NCBI RefSeq assembly: GCF_032118995.1
Contig: NC_092669.1
Coordinates: 2,169,501 to 2,233,500, forward strand
DNA from: Asterias amurensis
Lineage: Eukaryota > Echinodermata > Asteroidea > Forcipulatida > Asteriidae
Direction: 5' to 3'
DNA length: 64,000 nt
Numbering within the stretch: position 1 is the first letter of the stretch; each line of letters begins with the position of its first letter. Shown here piece by piece: positions 1-25,497 of this stretch. The position numbers and the translations under genes are program-made. The notes beneath the pieces are model-generated. The model did not search any database and had not been told where the DNA came from. It saw only the letters and a program-made list of their open reading frames with translations.

Positions 1-1364
1 TAAACAGTCTTCAGCTCCAGAGCTTTTTCGATCGCCCTTGCAACTGCGATGAGACGCCTATCATTCCCAGTGAGACCTTCAATCTGCATTCCAAAGGGCA
101 CCCCACTCCCTCTGACACGCCCACCCGGAATCACAAGGGAGGGGTTGTTGCAAATGTTACCGCAATCCTCATTGTGGGTGATTGCATCTTCCGTAGGGGG
201 CTCGTAGGTGCTGATCAACAGAGGGGGTACTTTATTGGCAGGCATGAGGATGCAGTCGAGTTGGTGATCGTCGAAGTACTTCTTCATATCCTCTCTAAGC
301 TTGTCTCTGGCCGTCATCGCTGCCTGGTAAAGCTCAGGACTGACTGGGTGCTGAACTATAGACTGGAATACCTCTCTGACATCTGGTGATGCTATCTTGT
401 TGACGACTTCTTCAACTGGTACTCTGTGTCCGTGGTGATCCAAGTACTCCTGAAGTCGAGGGATGAGCTCATAGTTTATGGTTGGTAGGAAGTAGCTGCT
501 AAACATCTCAGCAACTCCTGGAACTTCACCTTCGTCTATGATGGTAAAACCTTTGTCTTTGAGCTCTGCCAAGAATTTCTCCGCGTATTCCTGGACCGTA
601 GGGTCTAAACCTTCCCAGAAGTGAGGTCTCGCCACTCCAATTCTAATATCTGCTGGTGTGACGTCATCGAGAGGTTCCTCCCCTGTCATCACGTGATCTA
701 GGATCGCGATATCATTGGCGCACCTTGTGATGGGGCCGACTGAGTCTCTAACATGCGTCATCTTGACGCCGTAGTCAGCCGGCCAACGGCCGCTTGTAGT
801 GCGCAGACCGAAGACTCCATTGAAGGAAGAGGGAATTCGGATTGATCCACCGGTGTCAGTACCGAGGGCAACGGGGACGATATCAGCGGCGACGGCCCCT
901 CCACTTCCACCGCTACTCCCCCCGCAAATGTAGTCAAAGTTGTGAAAGTTGTGGCTATCTCCTGTGTACGGATTGATGGTTGACGCTCCAGCAGCCAGCT
1001 CGTGCATGTTGGTCCTACCAGCGTGGATTGCCCCTGCGTCAAAAAGCCTCTTAGCAACCTCAGCTGTGTGCTTGGGTTTGAGACCAGCTAGACCCGGAGT
1101 ACAAGCTCCAGTCGCCTCTCCTTCTACGTCGATGTTATCCTTTAAGGCGATTAGGATTCCTTCAAGAGGTCGATTGGTCTTGATCTGATACCTGACATCT
1201 GCCTCCTTGGCTTTCTGCAACATCCGCTCTGTATCCATGGAGACGAAGTAGTTGAAAATCTTCAGGTCCTCAGCCCGCTGGATCATCCGCTTAGTATACC
1301 CTTCACACGTCAGGGTACCTTTCTTGAAGCGGTCCAGGAGATCTCCGATTGTAAGACGATACAT
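1..1364 (-). CDS. Amidase-signature hydrolase, copy 1 (3' end at or just past the window edge)
   Basis: Predicted amide hydrolase of the amidase signature family, closest in pattern to bacterial mandelamide/indoleacetamide hydrolases. The minus strand reads open from ATG at 1364 to the window edge. The catalytic triad is visible: Lys75 (ALKDN), cis-Ser150 (GGSSGGSGG) and nucleophile Ser174 (GTDTGGSIR). The spacings of 75 and 24 residues match those of the family member FAAH. Relative to copies 2 and 3 the C-terminal part differs: about 25 residues (near 167-225) read STYEPPTEDAITHNE instead of the SAFDTDPTLL version and are two codons shorter in frame. The stop codon of copies 2 and 3 is AAG here, so four more codons lead to a TA- at position 1 that is probably a stop. 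A 3' splice site (CTTTGCAG) sits 23 nt before the ATG, implying a 5'-UTR intron. The substrate is unknown. The family call is firm; horizontal origin is inferred. Confidence 0.9.
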   Translation of the reverse strand, partial: MYRLTIGDLLDRFKKGTLTCEGYTKRMIQRAEDLKIFNYFVSMDTERMLQKAKEADVRYQIKTNRPLEGILIALKDNIDVEGEATGACTPGLAGLKPKHTAEVAKRLFDAGAIHAGRTNMHELAAGASTINPYTGDSHNFHNFDYICGGSSGGSGGAVAADIVPVALGTDTGGSIRIPSSFNGVFGLRTTSGRWPADYGVKMTHVRDSVGPITRCANDIAILDHVMTGEEPLDDVTPADIRIGVARPHFWEGLDPTVQEYAEKFLAELKDKGFTIIDEGEVPGVAEMFSSYFLPTINYELIPRLQEYLDHHGHRVPVEEVVNKIASPDVREVFQSIVQHPVSPELYQAAMTARDKLREDMKKYFDDHQLDCILMPANKVPPLLISTYEPPTEDAITHNEDCGNICNNPSLVIPGGRVRGSGVPFGMQIEGLTGNDRRLIAVARAIEKALELKTV

Positions 1365-1387
1365 CTTGAACAAAATTTCAGCAAAAC

Positions 1388-2560
1388 CTGCAAAGAATTG
1401 GGCAAGATGTTTAGACACCATTCAGCCACTGGCAAGGATATTTTACACACACAGAGTATTATTATTTTAATCACATTAGTTTTCATGACCAACAAATAGT
1501 TAATGACTTGACGTTTCGACCCTTGCAGAGTCTTTCTCGAAGGCTCAAGTTTCCATGACTTCAACTCAATATCTTTTAGCGCAAATGATACAATAGTGTC
1601 TTAAGCTTTGCATGGTGTGGGAAGAGAATAAACTATACATAAATATTAAACTTGTGGGTACAGCCATTATGTATAAACCACACCCTTGCTCTTTTCAGAG
1701 CCAACACTCATACAAAGAGATGTACACATGGTTATAATACCCGCAAGTTTACAATTAACTATATTTTCGTCCGATTGCTATGCAAAATAATTATGTGTAT
1801 TTTGACTGTACAGCGATTTGAAATAGTGATAAAGCGCTTTATAACTGCAGTTAAGTTAAAATGGTTGTAGTTGGGACATAGTAGAAATATAGAGAGTTGT
1901 TTTTATCATCTAAAAAAAAATATGCGCAGGTATAGGCCAAACTGTCAATAATAAAAGATTATCCTTTTGACCATGACGAGTGATCACATTGCATTGAAAA
2001 GATTATTGTTGTTGCTTTGGTTTTTTTTTTTTAAGGTTGAACTTACCTTACAAATGGACAGACTTTCAGCTTCTGACAAGTCGTGCACAGAGTTTAGGGT
2101 TAGTGATCGTCACAATAAGGTATCGCGTATTGTTAACGTAAGGTAACGTACAAACGTAACGTAACGTAACGTAACGTAACTCAGCAAATCACACCACCGG
2201 TGTCTTTATTCAGTTCTCATTAGCCCTCTTCACACGAGCGCTGATAACCAACGTCCTACTGCGATAAAATTGCACCGATCGGCCGTGTGAAACCACTCTA
2301 ATTTATACAATTCAAACACCGCGAGGCAGTATGTTCTCACACTGGGGTGTTGCCTAAACCCCTCAAATAATGCTACAGGATTCCCATTTACTGACAGTTC
2401 CGGTCCGTTTGTTGTTTGCAATCAACCATGGCATCAGTGTGCACTGACAATGTAAACTGATAACCATTCTAATCCAGATACGTCTTTATCGTCCGGGTGG
2501 TAAGAGCACGTGATTGTGAATTATGCAAAATATGTTTAGATATAGCTCAAATAATAATAA
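1388..2560. other. Non-coding stretch upstream of amidase copy 1
   Basis: This must hold the 5' intron, any non-coding first exon and the promoter of copy 1, but no donor or TATA box stands out. Around 1508-1556 (minus) lies a GAGAAAGAC...GTCGAAACGTC motif also seen near 25840. A short GTAAC array lies at 2138-2182. No other gene is seen. Confidence 0.4.
2138..2182. repeat. GTAAC pentanucleotide array
   Basis: The unit GTAAC is repeated with slight variation, with a clean run of about five units near 2156-2180. It is a simple microsatellite in non-coding DNA. Confidence 0.8.
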
Positions 2561-2574
2561 CAATACACGGTTTT

Positions 2575-2906
2575 TATATAGCGCTTTTTCACGGGGTGTC
2601 TCAAAGCGCTTCCGACATTATTTCCCCTGGTCACTGGGCCTTAAATCATCCCTAAAACCATCTCAGCTCCCTGGGGAGTATACAGCCTGTGCGACAATTA
2701 TATGCGCTACATGGCTAAACCAATCACAAGAACCATCTCTGCCCTCACAGGTACCCATTTACCCCTGGGTGGAGAGAAGCAATTATAGTTAAGTGTCTTG
2801 CTCAGGGACACAAGTGTCACGACCTGGATTCGAACCCACACTCTGTTGAACAGAAGCATCAGAGCTTGAGTTCGGTGCTCTTATCCACTCGGCCACGACA
2901 CCCTCA
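2575..2906 (-). mobile_element. tRNA-derived SINE (SINE-A), nearly full length
   Basis: Read on the minus strand, the element begins with a tRNA-Leu/Ser-like head having an A box (TGGCCGAGTGG) and a B box (GGTTCGAATCC). A body with the sub-motif TGAGCAAGACACTTAAC and a 3' part containing AAAGCGCTATATAAA follow. Related heads occur at 31130-31620, 37200-37380, 37576-37895, 45110-45300 and 54700-54800. It is a non-autonomous retroelement, so RNA polymerase III promoter activity is possible but unproven. Confidence 0.75.
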
Positions 2907-3129
2907 AAGTCTCCTTTTATGGTGTTTGAATAACACTATTAAAAGCTCACACCATCAGTGAATTACTTTATTCCTCTGTCAATTCAAAGTCTATTTTATT
3001 AATTTTTGGACTCATCATGTGTATTGGTTTGGTCAATTTTATTTAGTCTATCCCCTTGTTTACTATTAATTGGAATTATTTGTTGTATGAACGGGAAACA
3101 AAACAAAACAAACCAGAACACGTATTTTA

Positions 3130-3305
3130 AAAGCACTGGACACTCTTGGTAATTATATACTCAAAATTAATTAATGTTAGCATAAAAACTAATGACAACG
3201 ATCAATGGAGAGCTGCTGATAGTATAAAACATTGTGAGAAACGGCTCCCTCTGAAGTAACGTAGTTTTTGAGAAAGAGGTACTTTTTTTCACTCAAATAT
3301 TAAAA
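3130..3305 (+). mobile_element. F1 TTAA foldback element, 5' half
   Basis: Diverged left half of the F1 family (terminal motif GGCAGTGGACACTATTGG, here GCACTGGACACTCTTGG). It shows the family's internal block with AACATTGTGAGAAACGGC and GAGAAAGAGGTA, then loses similarity. A run of 16 G follows at about 3409-3424. Confidence 0.6.
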
Positions 3306-3597
3306 CACCCCATCCCCATTATGACGCGAACTATACAAACTAGCATACTTCTGGGAAGCGCCCTCTGTTGAATCCCACTGCTACCTCCAGCCTATGTTAA
3401 ATTCCAAGGGGGGGGGGGGGGGGGAGGGGACATAGGCGCTCTTCAAAACCATGTCTTTGGCTTTGGATTCGCAGCTCAGCTTAGCTTGGCCCGCGGTTGT
3501 TTTTGACAATTTGCGCGTGCTTTGCGTACGCACTTGGGGCTTCAGCTCAGACGAGAAGACGGTTTGGGATTTGTTTTCTGGGATAAATAGCAGGGGC

Positions 3598-3825
3598 CAA
3601 TTTCATAGAGCTGCTTAGGCAAAAAATTTGCTTAAGCGCGAAAATAGCTCGCTTATTTTACACATGTTACTGGCCAAAATGTCATGCCATATACATTGCT
3701 TATGACTAGTATTTAGCTGTTGTTTACTTAGCATAACAATTGAGTGGAGTCTTGGCCGGTAATCTGATTTTACTAAGCAATGAATTTTTTGCTTAAGCAA
3801 AAGCAGCTATATGAAATTGGGCCCA
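3598..3825. mobile_element. F3 palindromic element (AATTTCATAGAGCTGCTTAAGC family)
   Basis: A foldback with ends CCAATTTCATAGAGCTGCTT and GCAGCTATATGAAATTGGGC. The family is non-coding and dispersed through the window (about 9003, 12010, 29630, 35320, 36780, 42157, 46495, 55520). It carries an internal tract of TTAGCATAACAATTGAGTGG type. Confidence 0.75.
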
Positions 3826-3829
3826 TATA

Positions 3830-4445
3830 ATATTCAAAATGGTTGACCTACCAAAAATTTAAAAGAAACCTGAAGTTTATAGTTGTCATAGTTGTCTGAA
3901 AATGTATTTGATTTTTTTTTTTTTTTTTTTTTTAATCTTAGGGATATTTATTATTTAGCATTGGTTGCTGTATAACAGCCCAACTCGATTTCAATTCTTT
4001 TTAACATAAATCCTTGTTCAACTAAGGGCAGCCCATTTCAAAGTTTCTTATGCATTTTTATTATTTCTTTTGTACATTACATGTCCCATCATCTTTTTTT
4101 TTTATTTATTTATTTATTTTTTTTTTTTTTTATACACTTTCATCTATTTTTATGGTAAAAACATGATTTCTGTACTTGCTTTTACTCAAAATATCTGAAG
4201 AAAAAAAATCTGATTCAACGATATTTTTTATATATTATACTGGAACAACTACAGATCTCAAACAGCCGGCTACATGTACCATAATATTATTGTCACATTT
4301 TTCTAGAACACTTGAACAAGACCTGTTGGATACATACTATTCTGTCAAGTCACTGTTAATTTACAATTCTCATGTTATACTTATAGTTATTTTCATCCAT
4401 CGCTATCTTTGTCTAGTCTCAACTGTCGTCTTTAATTTTGATATT
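3830..4445. other. AT-rich low-complexity stretch
   Basis: Contains T runs at about 3910-3933 and 4095-4132, including TTTA repeats. No gene, splice-framed ORF or inverted repeat was found here. Confidence 0.5.
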
Positions 4446-4449
4446 TGTG

Positions 4450-4647
4450 TAGACTTGTGGACAACTCGTTAATGGTCCCACGAGTTGCAGCGGTGCTCCT
4501 CCAGATCACTGCTCTCGCGCGAACTGTTGCCCGACTAATGATATGGGGAGTAGAACGTGTCGGGCAACCAGCAGTTCGCGCAACGAGAGCGCCGCCACAA
4601 CTCGACTATCTGACCGCGGGATCATTAACGACTTGTCCCCAAGTCTA
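4450..4647. mobile_element. GC-rich foldback element, about 198 bp
   Basis: The left arm begins AGACTTGTGGACAACTCGTT and the right arm ends AACGACTTGTCCCCAAGTCT. Inner arms GCGCGAACTGTTGCCCGAC and GTCGGGCAACCAGCAGTTCGC pair around a short loop. It is much richer in GC than its surroundings. The short ORF across it is a by-product of the palindrome. Confidence 0.75.
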
Positions 4648-4855
4648 ATAATAAGTGTGTGTAATCAGGGAGGTAGAATTCTACCTCCAGAGTGTAATGT
4701 TGTGTGATATTGTCCCCGTGGTGTCTTTTCAAAAGGGATCAAGTGAGTTCTTTTGTGCTTCACTTTTTTTCTTTCCATGCTGGCTCAATTTTCATCTGCT
4801 GTTTACCAAGTTTCAATAATCTATTTTATTGTTTAATAAATTATTTAATTGGTAA

Positions 4856-5207
4856 TATTGTCAAAGACCAGTCTTCTCAATTGGTGTATCTCAACATAAT
4901 TATGCACAAAATAAAAAACCTGTGAAAATTTGAGCTCAATATATTGGTCGTTGAAGTTGCGAGATAATAATGAAAGAAAAAAAACAACCTCGCCACGCGA
5001 AGTTGTGTGCTTTCAGATGTTTGATTTCGAGACCTCAAAATCTAATTCCGGGGTCTCGAAATCAAAATCGTGGAAAATTACTTCTTTCTTGAAAACCACG
5101 TTACTTCAGAGGGAGCCGTTTCTCGCAATGTGTATACTATTAACCTCTCCCTATAACTCGTTACCAAGTAAGGTTTTATGCTAATAACCATTTTGAGTAA
5201 TTATAGT
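4856..5207 (-). mobile_element. F1 TTAA foldback element, nearly full length
   Basis: Reverse-oriented F1 copy containing ATTTTCACAGG/TGTGAAAATTTGAGCTC, the central palindrome TTTCGAGACCTCAA...GGGGTCTCGAAAT and CTTCAGAGGGAGCCGTTTCTC. Both terminal repeats are eroded, so target duplications cannot be checked. Confidence 0.75.
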
Positions 5208-5559
5208 TTCCACTGCGAGTTTTAGTGTGGTACACACTATCAATAGCCCCCTCAACCTTGTGTGCGTTGCGGCTTGTAATGACGTCACACAGTCGTTTTG
5301 GGTCAATAGGTTCGAATTATAATTATGATAAGATGGATCAAAGGTTCAAACCATAGAGTAAGAGGAAATAATTCTTTTATTGGTTGACCTCCCTTGTTGC
5401 GCGGTGGATCGACAGGCACTGAGCCACCGTTGATTTCGTCGATCGTACGGTAGCCTCTAGCTCTCTCACCAACGACTCGCAGTCCCAAAGTCTTCCCACC
5501 TGGATTGTAGGTAAGTACTAAGACCCAATTTCATGGAGCTGCTTAAGCAAAATTGTTGC

Positions 5560-5943
5560 TTAAAGGCAGTGGACACTAATTGGTAATTACTCAAAATAAT
5601 TGTTAGTATAAAACCTTACTTGATAACGAGTAATGGGGAGAGGTTGACGCTGTAAAACGTAGTGAGAAACGGCTCGACTTCTGACGTGACGTAGTTTTCG
5701 TGAAAGAAGTAATTTTTCCACGAATTTGATTTCGAGACCTCAAGTTTAGAATTTGAGGTCCCGAAATCAAGCATCTCAAAGCACACAACTTCATGTGACA
5801 AGAGTGTTTTTTCTTTCATTATTATCTCGCATCTTCGACGACCAATTGAGCTCAAATGTTTACAGGTTTGTTATTTTATGCATAATGTTGAGATACACCA
5901 ACTGTGAATACTAGTCTTTGACAGGTACAATAGTGTCCACTGT
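5560..5943 (+). mobile_element. F1 TTAA foldback element, unit A copy
   Basis: Begins TTAAAGGCAGTGGACACT and ends AATAGTGTCCACTGTA, with the central palindrome of CTCAAGTTTAGAATTTGAGG type. Its partner in unit B (12054-12808) is interrupted by an F2 element, so this copy shows the empty site. Confidence 0.85.
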
Positions 5944-6261
5944 ACAGAAGTTTGTACAAAGACTGGTGTTTTGATAACTACCTATATTGACTAATCTGGT
6001 CCGTGTCATCGTCATTTTGTCCTTGTCGTGTCCTATAGTCCCTGGTTGTCACAAGGACATGTACAAACGCAGTATGCTTATAACTGTTTTCCCTGCATGT
6101 TGACTTGCATGCTAATTACACTCGATATTATATTCTGTTTGAATATTCTTGACATTTTTTTATATTGAATTATGCCGTACCCATCTTTTCATAATTTGTT
6201 TTCAACTGTATATATATGTTTAATTGTCATTGTCAACATGGAATATACAGAATTGAATTGA

Positions 6262-6700
6262 ATTGAATTTAGTCCTTCGGAGAAAAATACCGAATCCGAC
6301 CGCCATTTTGTTCATTCTTCATGATGCAAAACATAATCATCATAAAAAAAGGAGATTAGTTTTGTTTGCCTCGTCTTTCTGGAAGTCAGTGGTTGGATCT
6401 CGGTTTATGTTAATTGTGGGTTATTTTTGCTGCCGAGGGCAGAATCAATTTATCTAAAAATGGTAATGGGAGAGTTCCTTCGGGAAAAAATACCGAAAAC
6501 CGACCGCCATTTTGAAAACCTACTGCCATTTTGAAAACCGACCGCCATTTGTTAATTCTTCAAGGCTCTAAAACAATCACCTCAAAAAAACAAGGGACTA
6601 TTTTTTTTTGCGTCGGCATTATGGAAGTCAGATGGTGGTTGGATCCGGAAACTCACTGTGGGTAATCTTACTTTTTTTACCAAGGGCAAACTCAGTAGAT
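6262..6700 (+). repeat. Diverged tandem duplication of about 200 bp
   Basis: Two adjacent segments share CCTTCGG-GAAAAATACCGAA, GACCGCCATTTTG, GGAAGTCAG-TGGTTGGATC and CCGAGGGCAGA-type motifs. Unit B retains only the first. It is non-coding and may be a decayed element. Confidence 0.5.
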
Positions 6701-6929
6701 TGCCTATAGTATACAAAAGCCTTTTTATAAAACAGGTATTGCAATTTTTATTTTTTTATTTATTTTTTTTTATGTGAAAACCTTGCATGCTGCAATGATT
6801 ATTATTATTCAGCGGGAAAACAAGCCCAGAGCGTTTGTAATGCAAAAACAATGTGTCGGGCGGCCATTAAAAAAAAAAATAAAAATAAAAATCCTCATTT
6901 CATTTTTTTAAAAAGGGAGGATGCAGAAA

Positions 6930-7300
6930 AAAACAGATTTAGACTGGGTCGCTGTCTTTAAAGACAGATACATGCAACTCAGATCCAGTGATTTCATTTC
7001 GATACAATTATATCATTTGATAAAATATGCAGTGACTAAAAGCTACCGTAGCTGGGTTTGTGTTGATTGGTCTGAGGTCACCTCGATTGACCAATCAAAA
7101 CAGTACATGTACATGCATGTGGCTGTACTTGCATGTGGATGTACTTGCATGTGGATGTTGGTGTAGAATTTGTGCGTATCTCCATGTGAAATGAATGTAG
7201 GTCAAAGGTGAATCTACACGCCGGCTTTGAGGCCGGTCTCTGGCGTTATTCACGAGCCTCGAAGTGTGACGTCAGTTGTTCTGGCTACCCGAGATTCTGT
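6930..7300 (+). promoter_or_regulatory. Amidase copy 2 upstream block with CRE-like site
   Basis: Conserved upstream of copies 2 and 3 (16210-16570). It contains two CATGTGGATGTACTTG-type repeats, the inverted pair CCGGCTTTGAGGCCGG and the palindrome TGACGTCA in GAAGTGTGACGTCAG, a cAMP-response-element type site about 290 bp before the ATG. A related block lies near DENND2 (58390-58640), so it may be repeat-derived. Promoter function is inferred only. Confidence 0.4.
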
Positions 7301-7563
7301 CGTCTCATGGGAAAATAATATGGGGCGGAAAATATTGATTCAAAAGAGGGAGCTATAGAAGTAGTCTGTACACAGACCGTCATTTTTTTTTTTTTTTTTT
7401 TTGGGGGGGGGGGACAAAATCTTCTGTCACACATGCAGTAAAGTTTGTGATTGGAAGACTAATATTTTACTCATGTGAAATTCTTGCCTGTGAACGATCA
7501 TAATAGAATGTAACTTATCATCTTGACCAATTCTTTGCAGGTTTTTTGTGAGGAGTTTTCAAG

Positions 7564-8925
7564 ATGTATCGTCTTACAATCGGAGATCTTCTGGACCGTT
7601 TCAAGAAAGGTACCCTGACGTGTGAAGGGTATACTAAGCGGATGATCCAGCGGGCTGAGGACCTGAAGGTTTTCAACTACTTCGTCTCCATGGATACAGA
7701 GCGGATGTTGCAGAAAGCCAAGGAGGCAGATGCCAGGTATCAGAGCAAGACCAATCGACCTCTTGAAGGTATCTTAATCGCCATAAAGGATAACATCGAC
7801 GTAGAAGGAGAGGCGACTGGAGCTTGTACGCCGGGTCTAGCTGGTCTCAAACCCAAGCACACAGCTGAGGTTGCTAAGAGGCTTTTTGATGCAGGGGCAA
7901 TCCACGCTGGTAGGACCAACATGCATGAGCTAGCATTTGGGGTGTCGACCATCAATTCGTACACGGGAGATAGTCACAACTTTCACAACTTTGACTATAC
8001 TTGCGGGGGGAGTAGCGGTGGAAGTGGAGGGGCCGTCGCCGCTGATATCGTCCCCGTTGCCCTCGGTACTGACACCGGTGGATCAATCCGAATTCCCTCT
8101 TCCTTCAATGGTGTCTTCGGTCTGCGCACCACCAGTGGGCGTTGGCCGGCTGACTACGGCGTCAAGATGTCGCATGTTCGTGACTCAGTTGGACCCCTCA
8201 CAAGGAGCGCCAATGACATCGCGATCCTAGATCACGTGATGACAGGGGAGGAACCTCTCGATGACGTCACACCAGCAGAGATTAGAATTGGAGTGGCAAG
8301 ACCTCACTTCTGGGAAGGTTTAGACCCTGCGGTCCAGGAATATGCGGAGAAATTCTTGGCAGAACTTAAAGACAAAGGTTTTATCATCATAGACGAAGGT
8401 GAAGTGCCAGGAGTTGCTGAGATGGTTGAAAAATACATCATGCCTACCGTCAACTATGAGCTGATTCCTCGACTGGAGGAGTATATGGAGCACCATGGTC
8501 ACAAAACTACAGTCGAGGAGGTCTTCAACAAGATAGCCTCACCAGATGTTAAAGAGCTCTTCAAGGATACAATGAAGAACCCAGTCAGTCCTGAGCTTTA
8601 CCAGGCAGCGATGACGGCCAGAGACAAGCTTAGAGAGGACATGAAGAAGTACTTCGAGGATCACCGACTTGACTGCATCCTCATGCCTGCCAACAAGATA
8701 CCCCCGGCGTTGATCAGCGCATTTGACACGGATCCCACTCTGCTGATGGCGGTCCTCCAAAACTTTGACTGCGGTAACATTTGCAACAACCCATCCCTTG
8801 TGATTCCGGGTGGGCGTGTCAGAGGGAGCGGGGTGCCCTTTGGAATGCAGATTGAAGGCCTCACTGGGAATGATAGGCGTCTCATCGCAGTTGCAAGGGC
8901 GATCGAAAAAGCTCTGGAGCTGTAG
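7564..8925 (+). CDS. Amidase-signature hydrolase, copy 2
   Basis: Full-length 453-residue amidase of bacterial mandelamide/indoleacetamide hydrolase type, predicted to cleave a small amide to acid and ammonia. The substrate is unknown. Catalytic residues are Lys75 (AIKDN), cis-Ser150 in GGSSGGSGGAVAA and nucleophile Ser174 in GTDTGGSIRIP. Downstream is the family block RDSVGPLTRSANDIAILD. No signal peptide or membrane segment is seen, so it is likely cytosolic. The ATG has A at -3. A 3' splice site (TTCTTTGCAG, ending 7540) lies 23 nt upstream, implying a 5'-UTR intron. Copy-specific features are His121 and residues about 282-315 (EMVEKYIMPTV, YMEHHGHKTTV), which copies 1 and 3 lack. The first AATAAA downstream is at 9629, beyond two repeats. 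About 450 residues is near the usual length of the family. Confidence 0.95.
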   Translation: MYRLTIGDLLDRFKKGTLTCEGYTKRMIQRAEDLKVFNYFVSMDTERMLQKAKEADARYQSKTNRPLEGILIAIKDNIDVEGEATGACTPGLAGLKPKHTAEVAKRLFDAGAIHAGRTNMHELAFGVSTINSYTGDSHNFHNFDYTCGGSSGGSGGAVAADIVPVALGTDTGGSIRIPSSFNGVFGLRTTSGRWPADYGVKMSHVRDSVGPLTRSANDIAILDHVMTGEEPLDDVTPAEIRIGVARPHFWEGLDPAVQEYAEKFLAELKDKGFIIIDEGEVPGVAEMVEKYIMPTVNYELIPRLEEYMEHHGHKTTVEEVFNKIASPDVKELFKDTMKNPVSPELYQAAMTARDKLREDMKKYFEDHRLDCILMPANKIPPALISAFDTDPTLLMAVLQNFDCGNICNNPSLVIPGGRVRGSGVPFGMQIEGLTGNDRRLIAVARAIEKALEL

Positions 8926-9002
8926 ACTGTTTAAAACCATCGAGAAAGGACCACAAAAGGAGTTTGAACTTCCCGGGCTACTGAGCATGTTACATAATGC
9001 AG

Positions 9003-9560
9003 ACACCCCAGGGCCAAATTTCATAGAGCTGCTTAAGTACAAAACTTTGCTTAAGCGAAAAAATTCTTATAAATATATATTGGTTTGCGGTAACACCATG
9101 TGTGTATATCTACTTGCCAGGTAGAGTTGTTCTTAGGGAACTGTCTTGCTTTATTCTACTGCCGTGGAGTAGAAAATCGGAGGTTCGGGAGACTTCTCAG
9201 TTCTGAAAAGAACTGTCCTGCTTTATAACTATTACCAGGGCGGATGGTATAGAAATTTGACTGGACTACTACTTTAGCTTATAGGATCGTAATAACTGTA
9301 CTGCCGCGGAGTCAGTTCGGAATTGGTCTCAACGTTTCGACTAGCTTGCTCTAGTCATCTTCAGGAGACTTCTTGCTTAGTAAAATCAGATTACTGGCCA
9401 AGACTCCACTCAATTGCTATGCTAAGTAAACAACAGCTAAATACCAGTCACAAGCAATGTGTATTGCATGACATTTTGGCCAGTAACATTTGTAAATCAA
9501 GCGTCCTACTTTCGTGCTTTAGCAAAATTTTTGCTTAAGCAGCTCCATGAAATTGGCCCC
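9003..9560. mobile_element. F3 palindromic element split by an insertion
   Basis: Left end CCAAATTTCATAGAGCTGC at 9003 and right end GCAGCTCCATGAAATTGG near 9560. The middle (about 9062-9370) is foreign to the family, as comparison with 3598-3825 shows. It lies in the presumed 3' flank of amidase copy 2. Confidence 0.7.
9062..9370 (-). mobile_element. Inserted repeat with a hammerhead-like hairpin at one end
   Basis: Foreign DNA inside the F3 element. It contains the direct motifs GAACTGTC(T/C)TGCTTTAT twice and ACTGCCG(T/C)GGAGT twice, which suggests a partly tandem structure. Its right end on the minus strand (9370 to 9323) reads GTCTCCTGAAGA, then a 6-bp stem GACTAG/CTAGTC, then GAAACGTTGAGAC. 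The resemblance to hammerhead ribozymes of Penelope-like elements or retrozymes is an inference from motif shape. Confidence 0.4.
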
Positions 9561-9737
9561 TGGTGGTATGCCCATGACCAAATCACTAGGACCGCACGCT
9601 GGGACAACTGACCATAGAGAAAGGACCTAATAAACATTTCTCTATTGTCTCACAATGTCAATACAAACAGTTGCACTATGCTTATCAAAATGTTGTAGTT
9701 TTGGGTGAGTTTGGGGGGTTCAGCTGTGGCATGACAA

Positions 9738-10075
9738 TAGACCTTATGCACATGACGTCATTTCAGTAGGGCGCCCTCACCTAGAGGTCAAAAGGAGGTT
9801 GTTCATTGGCCAGTCCTGTGCGCCGCGCGTACAAATCTGTGCGTTTCGATTCTTTCGTCACCGTTTTTCCACTAAGATGGCCGCTGGATGACGTCAATGC
9901 ATAAGGTCTATTTGAAAAACGCGCACGTGACGTCATTTGAATAGGGCGCACTCGGCTAGAGGTCAAACGATGGTTGCTCATTGGCCCATAAAACTCTGCG
10001 CAGATGTGCGTTTACCGATGTTGCACCACTGTTTTTACTTCTAAGATGGCGGCCTGCTGCTGACGTCACTGCATA
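9738..10075. mobile_element. Foldback element (TAGACCTTATGCA ends) plus a related second unit
   Basis: 9738-9910 has perfect 13-bp inverted ends, TAGACCTTATGCA and TGCATAAGGTCTA. The adjoining 9911-10075 is a diverged direct repeat sharing GTGACGTCATTT-AATAGGGCGC, CTAGAGGTCAAA and GACGTCA-TGCATAA. Both carry TGACGTCA-like sites and a CCAAGATGGC/TAAGATGGC motif. Confidence 0.65.
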
Positions 10076-10082
10076 AAAGTTC

Positions 10083-10376
10083 ATTTATCTCTATCATACT
10101 GGGCCGATTTGACCCCAAAATGTTGATTTAAAATTCAATAGGTATTTTGATGGGGGTCGAGAAAGTTACAAGCTTTCATTTGAGCCATTGCTCGAAAAAG
10201 TCCGCCAATTATTAGTAGCAGTGAAATAAGTACGTTTTAAAAAAAGTTTTAAATCATTAAAAGTAAAAGTTAAACTTTTTTCGTTAGAGCGGGTGATACT
10301 CTTTTTGAAATACCATTCACTCAAAAATAAGTTGATTTTGATGTTTGGGGCCAAAAATCTGACATAGCATCTTTAA
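10083..10376. mobile_element. F6 TTAA element, copy 1
   Basis: Right end is ATCTGACATAGCATCTTTAA. The left part shares TCAATAGGTATTTTGATGGG and AAGCTTTCATTTGAGCCATT with the copy at 60359-60655, whose left end is the inverse TTAAAGATGCTATGTCAGAT. It is non-coding. Confidence 0.65.
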
Positions 10377-10584
10377 TGGATATAAGTGATTAGGTTCATC
10401 CCCATTTTGTTAATGTTGAGAAACGATATAAGTTGCATGAAAATGGTTTGCATTTTGTCTGAAGTGTTTTTATATTGGCTAATAAATGACGTAAACTCAG
10501 ATCAGTGCTTTAATGTAATTTATTAAGTATCATATTCGTGTATATATATTTTTATGATTAATAGGTCATAACATGTAAAAAGGC

Positions 10585-10735
10585 GTTTAAAAGACAATGG
10601 ACCAGTCTTCTCATTTGGTGTGTATGCATAAAACCACAAACCTGTGAAAAATTGAGCTCGATTGGTCGACGGAGTTGCGAAATAATAATGAAAGAAAAAA
10701 TTAATACCCTTGTCACACGGAGCTGTGTGCTTCAA
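10585..10735 (-). mobile_element. F1 element fragment
   Basis: Carries the F1 right-hand motifs ACCAGTCTTCTCA-TTGGTG, CCTGTGAAAAATTGAGCTC and AATAATGAAAGAAAAA. It is cut off at a following F3 fragment (about 10738-10790). Confidence 0.6.
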
Positions 10736-10790
10736 GGGCCCAATTTCATAGATCTGCTAAGCATGAAAATTTGCTATGCATGACATTTCT

Positions 10791-11100
10791 GAAAAGCGTT
10801 TGTAACCGTTTGTTATAAAATGCATATAGGTAGGAAGATGTTGTAAAAGTAGAATACAATGATCCACACCAGTTTGCTTCGAAATTGCGTGGTTGTCCTT
10901 TTACTAACACGGTCGGCCATTTATGGGAGTCAAAAGTTTGACTCCCATAAATGGCCGACCGTGTTAGTCGACGAGGTAAAAGGAAAACCGTGCAATTTCG
11001 AGGCATGTTTGTGTGGATCATTGTATTCTACTTTTACAACATCTTTCTACCCATATATGCATTTTATAACAAACGGTTTCTAACGTTTCAAACGCTTTTC
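10791..11100. mobile_element. F4 foldback element, about 310 bp
   Basis: Almost the whole element is an inverted repeat: GAAAAGCGTTTGTAACCG at the left pairs with the right end near 11100. The centre is a near-perfect palindrome, GGCCATTTATGGGAGTC/GACTCCCATAAATGGCC (about 10908-10968). A second, shorter copy at 40378-40615 shows TTAA-flanked ends. The ORFs here read through the palindrome and are not genes. Confidence 0.8.
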
Positions 11101-11279
11101 GCAGACCAACTCGACCGATCCAAGGCAACGTTTTTTAAGCACATGACTCAAATGATGTGATAGCCTGCCATAAATACACAACACAATCTATTATTTGCAC
11201 ATTCCCCCCCAAATAGTGCGTTCATATTCAAACGAATTTGATACTTTGGGTGCATACTTTTGTCTACATTATAAAGGGT

Positions 11280-11640
11280 GCGTTCGTTTAGCTTCTCGCT
11301 GGGTCGACCCCGCAGTGCTCACTCGGGTGAACCCCTGACAAGAGACCTTATCGCAAATACCAATGCGCAAGCGCAGACTGTTGAATGAGGTGCATTGTGG
11401 GATATATATGGATCAAATTTGGATACCGGCAAGACCACAATGCACCTAATTCCAAGCTTTACGCGCGCGCCCCGGTATTTGCGAAAAGGTGTAGAGCTAA
11501 TCGAACGATCACACTCGCCCTCTCGTGGTGACGGCATGCATGCTCCTCAAGTCAGGGCACTGGGGGATGACCCGGGTGAGCCCCGTCAAAGCTATTCGAA
11601 CGTTACGGGGCAGACCGGGGTCTCGTAAACGAAAAATTGG
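11280..11640. mobile_element. Composite foldback region
   Basis: The inner inverted repeat 11341-11491 pairs CCTTATCGCAAATACC with GGTATTTGCGAAAAGG, and GAGGTGCATTGTGG with CCACAATGCACC. Outer sequence (GGTGCGTTCGTTTAGCTTC, GGGTCGACCCCG) matches the ends of the element at 61486-61638. Confidence 0.6.
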
Positions 11641-11942
11641 AATGTGAGGAGTATACCCGGGTTGTCCACCATATATTATGGCTTTGTCAGCCTACCGGGA
11701 TACTAGTACACAAACTTCAAATAAAACAGGCTTGTGAGACTTCTTATTAGAGAACACAATAGCTTTATTTAATAACTTAACTTACGAGACTTAGGTAAAT
11801 TAAAGACGGAGACTCCAACCTCCCAGACCAGGCTAACGGCTACTGGCGATCAAAGGCCGCGCCCTGGTATAAGTACTATACCCCGTACTTAATTAGTATT
11901 CATAATATTACTACGCCATCATACGAAAAGTAGTCCCATAAC
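11641..11942. other. Spacer before duplication unit B
   Basis: No ORF of note, inverted repeat or splice-framed exon was found here. Confidence 0.4.
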
Positions 11943-12053
11943 AGTAGCCTCTAGCTCTCTCACCAACGACTCGCAGTCCCAAAGTCTTCCCACCTGGATT
12001 GTGGGTAAGTACTAAGACCCAATTTCATGGAGCTGCTTAAGCAAAATTGTTGC

Positions 12054-12808
12054 TTAAAGGCAGTGGACACTATTGGTAATTACTCAAAATAATTGTTAGT
12101 ATAAAACCTTACTTGATAACGAGTAATGGGGAGAGGTTGACACTGTAAAACGTAGTGAGAAACGGCTCGACTTCTGACGTGACGTAGTTTTCGTGAAAGA
12201 AGTAATTTTTCCACGAATTTGATTTCGAGACCTTAAAGCCATTGGACCCTTTCGGTACAGAAACAAACAAAAAGTTCACAGATTTACAAATAATTTACAG
12301 GGTTTACAGAAGTTAATGGTGAAAGACTTCTCTTGAAATATTAGTACATGAAATGCTTTACCTTTTGAGAAAACGGTAAAACAATACAAATTCTCGTTAA
12401 CGAGAATTACGGATTTATTTTAAACACATGTCATGACACGGCGAAACGCGCGGAAACATGGGTGGGTTTTTCCGTTGTTTTCTCCCGACTCCAATGACCG
12501 ATTGAGCCTAAACTTTCACAGGTTTGTTATTTGATATAGAAGTTGTGGTACACAAAGTGTGGGCCTTGGACAACACTGTTTACCGAAAGGGTCCAATGGC
12601 TTTAAGTTTAGAATTTGAGGTCCCGAAATCAAGCATCTCAAAGCACACAACTTCATGTGACAAGAGTGTTTTTTTCTTTCATTATTATCTCGCATCTTCG
12701 ACGACCAATTGAGCTCAAATGTTCACAGGTTTGTTATTTTATGCATAATGTTGAGATACACCAACTGTGAAGACTATTCTTTCACAATTACCAATAGTGT
12801 CCACTGTA
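12054..12808 (+). mobile_element. F1 TTAA element interrupted by an F2 element
   Basis: Ends TTAAAGGCAGTGGACACT and AATAGTGTCCACTGTAC. The two F1 parts rejoin exactly when 12233-12605 is ignored, as the uninterrupted duplicate at 5560-5943 shows. Confidence 0.85.
12233..12605. mobile_element. F2 TTAA foldback element nested in F1
   Basis: Ends TTAAAGCCATTGGACCCTTT and GGGTCCAATGGCTTTAA, flanked by TTAA on both sides. The inner arms pair AGAGAATT/AACGAGAATT regions. Other copies are at 33424-33798, 43611-43984 and 59708-60083. TTAA specificity is typical of piggyBac-mobilised elements, but the terminal bases do not match classical piggyBac ends, so the superfamily is open. Confidence 0.85.
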
Positions 12809-13364
12809 CAGAAGTTTGTACAAAGACTGATGTTTTGATTACTTTCTATTATTACAGTGACTAATCTGGTCCGTGTCATCGTCATTTTGTCCTTGTCGTG
12901 TCAAAATAGTCCCCTGATTGTCACAAGGACATGTACAAACACAGTATGATTATAACCATTTCCCCCTGCATGTTGGCTAGCATGCTAATTACACTCAATA
13001 ATATTATATTCTATTGAACATTCTTGACATTCTATATTGAATTATGCCGTACCCATCTTTTCAGAATTTGTTTTCAACTGTTTGTTTAATTGTCATTGTC
13101 AACATGGAATATACAGAATTGAATTGAATTGAATTTAGTCCTTCAGAGAAAAATACCGAATCCGACCGCCATTTTGTTCATGATCATGTTGCAAAACATA
13201 ATCGTCATAAATAATGAGACTAGTTTTGTTTGCCTCGTCTTTCTGGAAGTCAGTGGTTGGATCTCGGTTTATGTTAATTGTGGGTTATTTTTGTTGCCGA
13301 GGGCAGAATAAATTTATCTAAAAATAGATGTAAACCCTGCCTCCGCTTGTGCATTAGCCCTCAT

Positions 13365-13436
13365 AGCCTAGTGGTCATCAGTCGCGCTCAATTCGCTGAA
13401 ATCTACGAGTTCGAATCTGCGCACGGGATCAATATT
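13365..13436 (+). repeat. tRNA-like sequence
   Basis: Reads AGCCTAGTGGTCAT (A-box-like) then GAGTTCGAATCTGC (B-box-like) at tRNA spacing. The acceptor stem does not pair well, so it is a SINE head or tRNA pseudogene rather than a functional tRNA. Confidence 0.45.
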
Positions 13437-13439
13437 TTT

Positions 13440-15085
13440 GGTTACCCCCCAAACTAAAAAAAATATTTCTTTTTGTAATATTTAAGTTAGATTCTTATCT
13501 TTATATCGATAGTGTTGCCTTTTCTTTTTCTCAATTGTTAGCCCAACATAACATGTGTGCATGCATGACACGATGATGTTTGAAAAACACGGTAAGCGGA
13601 AAATGGTGATCATAAGCGCAGAGTTTGGTGGTTAAGAGTTCTGTGAAATCAAATCGTACTAGATCAAACATCAAACCACCGACCCCCAAAAATGTTAAAA
13701 ATCGTAATTAATTAACCACGTGACCCATATTTGCATATTTAATTGTACAAGGGGACAAAGTTGTTGGAACTTCCTGTTGATGCTGACATCATGAGAACAT
13801 CAGCATAAGTATTGGAGTTGTACTACCTATTGAACCACTTGGAGTGTTCAAGGAGACCAACACGTCAGTCTAGAGTCCAACTCTGATTGTAAATATCAAT
13901 TCAGGCATCATCTTCAATTTAATTTTATGCAACAAGCAAACTTATAAATTTTCTGATTTTATTTCAAAGGGTAACATAAATGGCTGTTAGCAAACGGTTT
14001 CCAACAAAAACTACATGGTGTACGTGCACAATATTCTTACTGGCCTCAAGCATTTACCTCTAGATAATAAATCAAGCATTCAGTTCAAAATGATAAAAGT
14101 TTGTTATCGCCACATTATTCAGCGAACCATGAATCATACACAGCTACTATTCACAAGAAAATCTATGTGTGGAGGGTAACATGACAAGGCACATGGCACA
14201 CAATGGAACCGGAGTTTAACAATGACAATCCCAAAAGTGCAATTCGTCAGCCATTGAAGTTTATTATACATGGGGCTGATGGTGATCAAAAGGATAAAAG
14301 TCTGTTGTCGATACAACCGCCCACTTATATTCAACATACCACGAATCACGGACCATATGCACAAAATAAAATATTCAAAAGAATATCCATATAATAGATT
14401 TGTCTGGTGTATAAACTAATGTCCCAGCCATGGGATTTTCGTGTGTTTTTGCTAGATTCCTCGCTCCCCAACCAAAGTGACTACAAAACGTCTCTAATGG
14501 ATAACAATGGTATATTTCGACATTCAGCAAGAGTTGTGGGGCCCATTTTCTCTAGTATTTATTTTTATCACACAACTAGTGTTCCCTTTTATGTTTTATT
14601 ATGATGTTGGGTATTTTGTTTATCTGTTTCATTTAAATATATGGTTTAGTTTTATTTTACGCTAACTGTTTTTGTGTTTGTTCTTCCTGTAATTTTGAAT
14701 TGTTTTGCCGCTACATAAGATTACACCCACTAAATAGAATTGCTTACATTGCTTTCTTCGTTAGAAAAAAAGGAGGGGGGGGGTCCGCACTCGTTAAGGT
14801 TTGCTTTTTATGGGCCCCTCCATCCCCTACATGTGTTTTGCATTGATTTTTAGTTTTTGTTTTCTATTATTGTACGATTGCATTTGCTTGTAATAAATTA
14901 TTTATTACCTTCTGTGTAGACTAAGCAAGTCTCGTGCGTATTTGAACTTGCGGGACCATTATGTTCCAAACCTTATGGAGTTTTACGTGGGACATTTTGT
15001 TTCGTCCAGACCATGAATGTTAGAAATATTGTTGGAAATGTAATACTAGTTAACGAAACGTATACAAGTAAAATCATTTCAACAA
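13440..15085. other. Non-coding interval unique to unit B
   Basis: AT-rich, with short non-overlapping ORFs that lack coding character. No inverted repeat or family match was recognised. A run of G occurs near 14776. Confidence 0.4.
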
Positions 15086-15089
15086 AAAA

Positions 15090-15432
15090 ATCCTACTTTC
15101 GGGATGTCGACTTCCCGAGATAAATTATCACAGGAAGACGACATCCTAATTTTAGGATGTCGACTTCCCGAGATAAATTATCACAGCAAGACGACATCCT
15201 ACTTTTGGGATATCGACATTCCGAGATAAATTATCACAGGAAGACGACATTCTTCTTTTAGAATGTCGACTTCCCGAGATAAATTATCACAGGGAGATGA
15301 CAACTGACGTTTAGGATGTCGACATACCAAGATAATTTATTACAGGAAGACGACATCCTACTTTTAGGATGCCGACATTCCGAGATAAATTATCACAGGA
15401 AGACGACATTCTTCTTTAAGAATGTCGACTGT
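15090..15432 (+). repeat. Satellite-like tandem array, about 60-bp unit
   Basis: About six units built on GATAAATTATCACAGGAAGA plus CGACATCCTA-TTTTAGGATGTCG. Each unit contains a short hairpin because GACATCCTA and TAGGATGTC are complementary. Individual units vary (for example GACATTCTTC). Confidence 0.85.
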
Positions 15433-15960
15433 TTGTAGTTATAAGACTCCTTGGGCATAGGAGAAAAATTTGGAAAAACCGTGACCTCAATTTGACCTCT
15501 ACTTCCGGGTCAACCGGAAGTGGGACCATATCTCAAGAACCACTCAACCTAATTTTCAATTTGTTTTCACTTACAGACTCCTTGACATTAATATTGACTG
15601 TGAAAACCCGTGACCCCATGTTGGCCTCTACGTCCGGGTGAACCGGAAGGGGGACCATACGCCAAGTACTATACAACCGATTTTCAATCCTTTTTGTTCA
15701 GTTTTATCCTCCTAAGGCATTAAAAATAAACTTTGAAAATCCATGACCCCAAGTTGACCTCTACTTCCGGGTCAACCAGAAGTGGCACCATATCTCAAGA
15801 ACTACACAACCGATTTTCGAACTTTTTTCAGATACAGTCTCCTTGGGCGTTAGAGATTAGCCTTAGGTTACCGTGACCCCATGAAGTGGCACCGTAACTC
15901 AAGACACTGTACAGTATTTGTCATACTTTTTTCAGTTATAGACTCCTTGGTAATTTTAAC
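15433..15960 (+). repeat. Tandem array, about 130-bp unit
   Basis: About four diverged units sharing AGACTCCTTGG, CCGTGACC-CA-TTGACC, CTACTTCCGGGTCAACC and ACCATATCTCAAGAAC. It lies next to the 15090-15432 array, inside the interval special to unit B. Confidence 0.8.
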
Positions 15961-16209
15961 ACATAATCAAAGCAAAAGAACACGGAACAGCTTTGTGTTT
16001 GTTCACAAACACCTAATGTCTAGTTTTATGATTATCTTTGTGTGAAAACCTTGCATGCTGCAATGATTATTATTATTCAGCGGGAAAACAAGCCCAGAGC
16101 GTTTGTAATGTAAAAACAATGTGTCGGGCGGCCATTTAAAAAAAAAAAAAAAAATCCTCATTTCATTTTTGAAAAAAGGGAGGATGCAGAGAAAAAAAAA
16201 CAGATTTAG

Positions 16210-16575
16210 ACTGGGTCGCTGTCTTTAAAGACAGATACATGCAACTCAGATCCAGTGATTTCATTTGGATACAATTATATCATTTGATAAAATAGGCAGA
16301 GACTAAAAGCTACCGTAGCTGGGTTTGTGTTGATTGGTCTGAGGTCACCTCGATTGACCAATCAAAACAGTACACGTACATGCATGTGGCTGTACTTGCA
16401 TGTGGATGTACTTGCATGTGGATGTTGGTGTAGAATTTGTGCGTATCTCCATGTGAAATGAATGTAGGCCAAAGGTGAATCTACACGCCGGCTTTGAGGC
16501 CGGTCTCTGGCGTTATTCACGAGCCTCGAAGTGTGACGTCAGTTGTTCAGGTTACCCGAGATTCTGTCGTCTCAT
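16210..16575 (+). promoter_or_regulatory. Amidase copy 3 upstream block with CRE-like site
   Basis: Nearly identical to 6930-7300, including GTGACGTCAGTTG. A long TTTA/T tract and a G run (about 16647-16708) separate it from the ATG. Confidence 0.35.
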
Positions 16576-16649
16576 GGGAAAATAATATAGGGCGGAAAAT
16601 ATTGATTCAAAAGAGGGAGCTATAGAAGTAGTCTGTACACAGGCCGCCA

Positions 16650-16683
<34 letters not shown>

Positions 16684-16854
16684 TTTTTTTTTTTTTGGGG
16701 GGGGGACAAAATCTCCTGTCACACATGCAGTAAAGTTTGTGATTGGAAGACTAATATTTTATTAATGTGAAATTCTTGCCTGTGAACGATCATAATAGAA
16801 TGTAACTTATCATCTTGACCAATTCTTTGCAGGTTTTTGTGAGGAGTTTTCAAG

Positions 16855-18216
16855 ATGTATCGTCTTACAATCGGAGATCTTCTGGACCGTTTCAAGAAAG
16901 GTACCCTGACGTGTGAAGGGTATACTAAGCGGATGATCCAGCGGGCTGAGGACCTGAAGGTTTTCAACTACTTCGTCTCCATGGACACAGAGCGGATGTT
17001 GCAAAAAGCCAAGGAGGCAGATGCCAGGTATCAGAGCAAGACCAATCGACCTCTTGAAGGAATCCTAATCGCCTTAAAGGATAACATCGACGTAGAAGGA
17101 GAGGCGACTGGAGCTTGTACTCCGGGTCTAGCTGGTCTCAAACCCAAGCACACAGCTGAGGTTGCTAAGAGGCTTTTTGACGCAGGGGCAATCCACGCTG
17201 GTAGGACCAACATGGATGAGCTAGCATTGGGGGTGTCGACCATCAATTCGTACACAGGAGATAGTCACAACTTTCACAACTTTGACTACATTTGCGGGGG
17301 GAGTAGCGGTGGAAGTGGAGGGGCCGTCGCCGCTGATATCGTCCCCGTTGCCCTAGGTACTGACACCGGTGGATCAATCCGAATTCCCTCTTCCTTCAGT
17401 GGGGTCTTCGGTCTGCGCACTACCAGTGGGCGTTGGCCGGCTGACTACGGCGTCAAGATGACGCATGTTCGTGACTCAGTTGGACCCCTCACAAGGAGCG
17501 CCAATGACATCGCGATCCTAGATCACGTGATGACAGGGGAGGAACCTCTCGATGACGTCACACCAGCAGAGATTAGAATTGGAGTGGCAAGACCTCACTT
17601 CTGGGAAGATTTAGACCCTACGGTCCAGGAATACGCGGAGAAATTCTTGGCAGAGCTCAAAGACAAAGGTTTTACCATCATAGACGAAGGTGAAGTTCCA
17701 GGAGTTGCTGAGATGTTTAGCAGCTACTTCCAACTAACCATAAACTATGAGCTCATCCCTCGACTTCAGGAGTACTTGGATCACCACGGACACAGAGTAC
17801 CAGTTGAAGAAGTCGTCAACAAGATAGCGTCACCAGATGTTAAAGAGCTCTTCAAGGATACAATGAAGAACCCAGTCAGTCCTGAGCTTTACCAGGAAAC
17901 GATGGCAGCCAGAGACAAGCTTAGAGAGGACATGAAGAAGTACTTCGAGGATCACCGACTTGACTGCATCCTCATGCCTGCCAACAAGATACCCCCGCCG
18001 TTGATAAGCGCATTTGACACGGATCCCACTCTGCTGATGGCGGTCCTCCAAAACTTTGACTGCGGTAACATTTGCAACAACCCATCCCTTGTGATTCCGG
18101 GTGGGCGTGTCAGAGGGAGTGGGGTGCCCTTTGGAATGCAGATTGAAGGTCTCACTGGGAATGATAGGCGTCTCATCGCAGTTGCAAGGGCGATCGAAAA
18201 AGCTCTGGAGCTGTAG
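16855..18216 (+). CDS. Amidase-signature hydrolase, copy 3 (mosaic)
   Basis: Full-length 453 residues with all catalytic positions: Lys75 (ALKDN), cis-Ser150 and Ser174 (GTDTGGSIR). Residue 121 is Asp (NMDELALG) rather than the His of copies 1 and 2. Most of the gene follows copy 2, including the DTDPTLLMAV C-terminal version. However, about 17605-17830 follows copy 1, giving MFSSYFQLTINYELIP and LQEYLDHHGHRVPVEEVV. The switch back is sharp at VNKIASPDV before KELFKDTMKNP. This pattern points to gene conversion or unequal crossing-over. The 3' splice site TTCTTTGCAG ends at 16832, 22 nt before the ATG. No downstream partner gene suggests a pathway. Confidence 0.95.
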   Translation: MYRLTIGDLLDRFKKGTLTCEGYTKRMIQRAEDLKVFNYFVSMDTERMLQKAKEADARYQSKTNRPLEGILIALKDNIDVEGEATGACTPGLAGLKPKHTAEVAKRLFDAGAIHAGRTNMDELALGVSTINSYTGDSHNFHNFDYICGGSSGGSGGAVAADIVPVALGTDTGGSIRIPSSFSGVFGLRTTSGRWPADYGVKMTHVRDSVGPLTRSANDIAILDHVMTGEEPLDDVTPAEIRIGVARPHFWEDLDPTVQEYAEKFLAELKDKGFTIIDEGEVPGVAEMFSSYFQLTINYELIPRLQEYLDHHGHRVPVEEVVNKIASPDVKELFKDTMKNPVSPELYQETMAARDKLREDMKKYFEDHRLDCILMPANKIPPPLISAFDTDPTLLMAVLQNFDCGNICNNPSLVIPGGRVRGSGVPFGMQIEGLTGNDRRLIAVARAIEKALEL

Positions 18217-25383: not shown

Positions 25384-25497
25384 TTTGAGATGATGACGAA
25401 TTGGATTAAGCGTTCACCTGAATTTAAGGCGAGAGTTGGCTATGCGTAAGTCAATGGTGTGCTTGTTTCCCTCCAAACTCGACAAGAGCTTAGTTGT

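Follow-up and report, generated by a model that had tools for sequence, protein, structure and literature searches.

Amidase copies in the window and in the genome

According to PMC10625585, the assembly of the starfish Asterias amurensis amounts to 491.53 Mb, and its 22 chromosomes measure between 13.43 and 38.00 Mb; the paper also mentions nine tissues in connection with RNA-seq. We analysed a stretch of 64,000 nucleotides, hereafter called the window, on the smallest chromosome, C22 (C22:2169501-2233500; chromosome length 13,426,355 bases). The window bears three amidase genes. They had been noticed in a preceding reading of the DNA without database searches (the sequence-only reading), and each of the three open reading frames (ORFs) indeed matches the amidase family PF01425. 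A PF01425 search together with a protein search of the whole genome (491,506,623 bases, 23 contigs, including the window) revealed six intact copies, four on C22, one on C2 and one on C10, and at least one broken copy besides:

Window 3..1364, minus strand: copy B, single-exon coding sequence (CDS) of 454 codons, the stop codon being formed by window positions 2-1 and one base beyond the edge; PF01425
Window 7564..8925, plus strand: copy C, single-exon CDS, 453 amino acids; PF01425
Window 16855..18216, plus strand: copy D, single-exon CDS, 453 amino acids; PF01425; 94% identity to C
C22:2165640-2167001, plus strand: copy A, single-exon and intact, 2.5 kb outside the window
Chromosome C2: copy E, single-exon and intact, found by the genome-wide PF01425 and protein searches
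Chromosome C10: copy F, single-exon and intact, found by the same searches
C10:3915720-3916722: broken and more divergent amidase material with several in-frame stops, 39-41% identity over the longer matches

Identity to copy C is 94% for D, 89% for B, 85% for E, 76% for A and 64% for F. On C22 the copies form a local array, A(+), B(-), C(+) and D(+), within about 22 kb, and the local expansion proposed earlier is borne out by these four intact copies. Copies C and D also have similar upstream regions:

Window 6760..7563, plus strand: upstream block of copy C, common with copy D, 92-94% identity
Window 16026..16854, plus strand: upstream block of copy D, common with copy C, 92-94% identity

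The likeness of these blocks argues for a recent joint duplication of C and D.

Catalytic residues and family placement

All six intact copies score 259.9-292.9 bits with PF01425 against a cut-off of 27, and the domain spans most of the protein. The Lys-cisSer-Ser triad with family spacing, claimed for each copy in the window, was found as K75, S150 and S174 and is unchanged in all six intact copies. These residues align with positions 79, 154 and 178 of the GatA chain 2df4, which we take to be the catalytic residues of GatA; the spacing, counted from the alignment, is identical (75 and 24).

The NCBIfam scan took in five copies, D being left out. Its top model was NF005688 (indoleacetamide hydrolase, IaaH) for all five, with 392.7-437.5 bits. 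The next model reached 189-214 bits, about half as much, and was gatA for four copies and an amidase model for F. The 532-bit cut-off of NF005688 was missed by all five copies, whereas four of four annotated IaaH proteins from bacterial plasmids pass it (546.5-668.9 bits), although their annotation may itself derive from this model. As NF005688 is the best model but its cut-off is missed, the copies belong to the indoleacetamide branch, outside the curated equivalog.

IaaH (NF005688/PRK07488; Agrobacterium, Pantoea, Achromobacter and others) is of similar length and aligns with the starfish copies nearly over its full length. Identity to four annotated IaaH (loci L071-L074) is 31.8-33.8%, and IaaH falls in the same tree group as the starfish clade. 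Apart from the missed cut-off, the starfish family differs from IaaH in consisting of six intact copies in an animal genome. Within the amidase-signature superfamily, the mandelamide hydrolase of Pseudomonas, which the sequence-only reading had likewise named for comparison, is closely related to IaaH.

Alternatively, the copies could be divergent FAAH or GatA amidases of the host which are bacterial in looks only. The amidase signature and PF01425 are common to all of these proteins, including animal FAAH1, FAAH2 and FAAH-like proteins, and the triad spacing is the same in GatA/QRSL1. Moreover, the PDB chain 6dhv, named fatty acid amide hydrolase and presumably an Arabidopsis protein, reaches 106 bits, which is within the range of some bacterial amidases. 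However, the gatA profile yields about half of the NF005688 score on the starfish copies. In the comparison with PDB chains the best matches are bacterial amidase and GatA chains, at 138.5 bits and below, the top score being that of a bacterial amidase; chains named FAAH1 do not exceed 51.6 bits. The host genes that we read as FAAH2 and FAAH-like match in several exons, in contrast to the single-exon starfish copies. Together with the tree tests described below, which concern FAAH-type genes only, this makes a disguised FAAH or GatA origin very improbable.

The host has separate exons on C14 which we read as GatA-like. Between 1.06 and 3.26 Mb of this chromosome the same GatA-like exon is matched at six places, on both strands, over 2.2 Mb. 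The matches cover profile positions 143-205; one has a stop, and two that were compared are identical over 62 residues. GatA is normally a single gene, of which C14 may hold several copies or fragments.

Bacterial relatives and phylogeny

Bacterial relatives were collected by genome searches around two rhodobacterial loci, in samples that overlap; in most samples the best few candidates per genome only were scored. A match was found in 9 of 398 genomes at E<=1e-50, and in 10/300, 17/297, 10/385, 10/293 and 3/116 genomes of five samples at E<=1e-60. Among plasmid records 1496 had a match, with 30.9-34.7% identity among the best 40 of these 1496. One bacterial fragment of 48 residues showed 40% identity. 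A contig scan with patterns from the six-copy alignment, which are poorly informative, hit two distant loci only. Scanning of viral contigs gave no match, and 26 phage records matched weakly (25-31% identity in the 20 listed).

Besides the host genes, the trees hold rows from Pseudomonadota genomes and plasmid records, so that prokaryotes are the only relatives sampled. Before the 67-row tree was made, L034, L036 and L039 (near-duplicates), L077 (long branch) and L048 were dropped; in a 53-row tree L048 had been a weak long-branch neighbour of the starfish clade (88/70). A further tree and two approximately unbiased (AU) tests used 34 of the same 67 rows. L097 and L098 are in no tree, and neither are the host GatA and PDB sequences.

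In the careful 67-row tree the six starfish copies form one clade (100/100), which lies within a 60-row indoleacetamide-type group (99/99). Host FAAH2, the host FAAH-like gene and five other bacterial amidases are placed outside this group. The 53-row tree (99/94) and the 34-row tree (93/96, unstarred) show this grouping as well. On the 34-row set, joining the starfish copies with both host FAAH-type genes was rejected (p-AU 0.0043), and so was joining them with the FAAH-type gene on C3 alone (p-AU 0.0037); under the model of the AU test a common clade with the host's two FAAH-type genes is therefore rejected. The sequence-only reading had considered the genes closer to bacterial hydrolases than to animal FAAH. 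The best profile and these tests agree with it, and comparison of the sequences supports a closer kinship of the copies with bacterial indoleacetamide-type hydrolases than with the host FAAH-type genes.

Putative 5' intron

A common putative splice acceptor, CTTTGCAG, stands 22-23 nt ahead of each ATG of B, C and D:

Window 1388..1401, minus strand: putative 3' splice acceptor of copy B, AG at 1389-1388, 23 nt before the ATG
Window 7527..7540, plus strand: putative 3' splice acceptor of copy C, 23 nt before the ATG
Window 16819..16832, plus strand: putative 3' splice acceptor of copy D, 22 nt before the ATG

In these three copies CCAATTCTTTGCAG, with G as the next base, ends 23, 23 and 22 nt ahead of the ATG. 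Copy E has a close variant, ATTATTCTTTGCAG with G next, 22 nt ahead of its ATG. The acceptor of F is different, TTCCTCCCCTGTAG with T next, at 17 nt. An acceptor was expected before the ATG of copy A too, but there is none, the best site scoring -0.44 bits. The statement that the same acceptor precedes each copy thus applies to the three window copies and, as a variant, to E, but not to the fourth local copy.

Sites were scored with a generic 3' splice matrix drawn up from general knowledge, against a background of 20,000 random 50-nt stretches of the window. As high a score was reached by 1.2% of the random stretches for the B-D acceptor, 1.5% for E and 1.9% for F. Because the acceptors of B to E are akin by descent, they make, together with F, about two independent observations and not five. 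Copies C, D and E are homologous to B from 44-75 nt ahead of the ATG onward, a start that precedes the acceptor. For A, homology with B-E sets in 3 nt ahead of the ATG and follows a CAA repeat.

Within 4-5 kb upstream we found no conserved first exon but repeats and the C/D duplication blocks only, and for this reason we call an intron in the 5' untranslated region (5'-UTR) of these genes likely and no more. The earlier claim that the intron was gained before duplication is upheld in so far as an acceptor older than the B-E duplications is plausible from the sequences.

Selection and gene conversion

The ratio of nonsynonymous to synonymous divergence (dN/dS) was obtained for 12 of the 15 copy pairs and is 0.049-0.369 in them; for the remaining three, all with F, dS was not computable. 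For A-F and B-F dS is 2.8 and 5.4, and due to this saturation their ratios, the lowest of all, are unreliable. The reading frames of the amidase copies are maintained by selection. Saturated silent sites between F and the other copies show that the family is old.

Silent divergence between copies is mosaic. Between A and B, dS is 0.03-0.10 in alignment windows of residues 1-117, 1.4-2.7 in residues 178-412 and 0.29 in the last one (385-442). Silent differences of this pair amount to 10/125 codons at the N end, 37/125 and 37/148 in the core and 3/53 at the C end, as compared to 17/125, 41/125, 32/148 and 16/53 codons between A and E along the same stretches. This mosaic indicates gene conversion between the amidase copies.

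A shuffle test of the longest run (2000 shuffles, 10 pairs among copies A-E, with F left out) gave a related picture. The observed run was reached in none of the 2000 shuffles for A-B, A-C, A-D, A-E and C-E, and in 0.05-0.65% of them for B-C, B-D, B-E and D-E; for C-D it was reached in 7.4%, which is not significant. The runs of this test count all codon differences. Since pairs with E, which lies on another chromosome, are significant as well, uneven constraint contributes, and conversion shows more cleanly in the silent counts.

Amino-acid differences cluster at residues 251-400 (21 of 27 between C and D). Pairwise windows showed no dN/dS clearly above 1 in this region, and diversifying selection there is therefore unsupported. 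Of the selection for dosage or substrate range that had been suggested from the intact frames, the low dN/dS ratios sustain the selection on the frames; either dosage or substrate range may lie behind it.

Chromosomal setting

Single-exon ORFs of bacterial type might be expected from bacterial contamination or an assembly error. Against this, intact copies lie on three chromosomes of a chromosome-scale assembly. Some 14-17 kb downstream of copy D, on the minus strand of the window, there are a DENN match (35057-35560) and a dDENN match (32687-33052), probably exons of one DENN-type gene, so that the array lies near an apparently ordinary multi-exon animal gene. Repeats are common to the flanks of copies on different chromosomes, and the mosaic divergence points to conversion among the copies. 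The GC content at third codon positions (0.51-0.58) is neutral in this question. These observations support the copies as host genes, in agreement with the sequence-only reading, and leave contamination or misassembly a negligible chance.

Origin of the family

The evidence can be drawn together as a family of probably working amidases of the indoleacetamide-type branch, descended from a bacterial ancestor, provided with a 5' intron and duplicated across three chromosomes; we give this account an even chance. The horizontal origin itself, judged from sequence, likewise stands at about even odds, and had there been an acquisition it would be old. A bacterium would have supplied the ancestral gene well before the present species arose, and the gene would then have gained a 5'-UTR intron and a promoter, the copies being presumably expressed. 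Duplication would have carried it to three chromosomes and local amplification would have raised it to four copies on C22. Gene conversion would even out the ends of the CDS, and the 250-400 region would be left to differ most between copies.

A nested position of the starfish clade among bacteria is seen in the careful 67-row tree, in a 54-row fork (92/81, unstarred), and in the quick 67-row tree, in a 39-row fork with a value of 98 in the Shimodaira-Hasegawa-like approximate likelihood ratio test (SH-aLRT). Several results weigh against a bacterial ancestor with a 5' intron. An AU test does not reject a tree in which the starfish copies stay outside a clade of the group's 54 bacterial rows (p-AU 0.353), and the best 34-row tree has the bacteria together with the starfish as their sister, weakly (39/24). 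A very long stem leads to the starfish clade (1.7-1.9 changes per column), and near-full-length bacterial matches reach at most 39% identity among the matches listed. The missed NF005688 cut-off and the lack of a conserved first exon within 4-5 kb upstream belong here too. The protein phylogeny, which the sequence-only reading had named as the way to check its proposal, thus groups the copies with the bacterial indoleacetamide type but does not separate a nested from a sister position, so 'bacterial-type' is supported and 'derived from within bacteria' is not settled.

As a rival account, the copies could belong to an ancient amidase lineage of eukaryotes or animals that was passed down vertically and disappeared from many well-studied animals; it would have shed its coding introns, or gone through a retrocopy stage, before expanding in starfish, with the same chemistry. 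The modest identity to the sampled bacteria, the long stem and the sister arrangement all suit it. In addition, the saturated silent divergence of F speaks for great age, and the similarly placed acceptor in F and B-E suits an old eukaryotic gene structure. However, none of the six intact copies has a coding intron, whereas the host FAAH2 and FAAH-like genes match in several exons. We regard vertical descent as a serious possibility, somewhat short of even. The fullest version of the bacterial-ancestor account, in which a captured hydrolase became a starfish multigene family with promoter and 5' intron on three chromosomes, was maintained in action by selection and gene conversion, its 250-400 region diversifying for substrate range, and brought to an animal a step of amide hydrolysis known elsewhere from bacteria, plants and fungi, is a tentative one that we place somewhat below an even chance.

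Predicted function and significance

From their sequences, the copies are probably working amidases of the amidase-signature superfamily, and membership in it suggests a serine amidase acting on small amides. Ser174 would attack a small, probably aryl- or alkyl-acetamide-like substrate, cis-Ser150 and Lys75 would relay protons, and the products would be ammonia and an acid. No signal peptide was obvious by eye and the location is probably cytosolic. A structure predicted from a five-sequence alignment was poor (mean predicted local distance difference test score, pLDDT, 45.3).

Among the matches listed from the open-licence literature there was no report of this amidase family in an animal; PMC6005172 and PMC7379824, in the parts available, deal with other amidases. 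In the main text of an A. amurensis genome paper (PMC11090083) the words 'amidase' and 'hydrolase' do not occur.

If acquired, the family would be a bacterial enzyme long resident in an echinoderm and kept there by selection, amplified into a local array and subject to gene conversion, and hence a tractable case of a foreign gene turning into a eukaryotic gene family. If inherited vertically, a branch whose curated model bears a bacterial enzyme name would have an animal side. With either origin, six intact copies of low dN/dS in an ecologically important starfish offer a directly assayable enzyme family.

Other observations

Two further open frames lie on the minus strand of the window. The frame at 24421-25413 has 330 codons and no Pfam match at E<=0.01. 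That at 40661-41347 consists mostly of repeats of a peptide around HARKLPRSQASTLASF, and the viral Pfam matches it has are weak, fall short of their cut-offs and look compositional.

On nuclear chromosome C5 there are two COX1 copies with in-frame TGA codons (658874-660214 and 675294-676634). They are 16,420 bases apart, nearly the length of one mitochondrial genome (16,427), and could stem from mitochondrial DNA inserted in tandem or from an error of assembly. C23 is the mitochondrial genome itself, with 16,427 bases; its long ORFs stay open with the echinoderm code and just as well with table 5. Two long minus-strand ORFs upstream of COX1 on C23 are presumably ND1 and ND2 in the starfish-type order.

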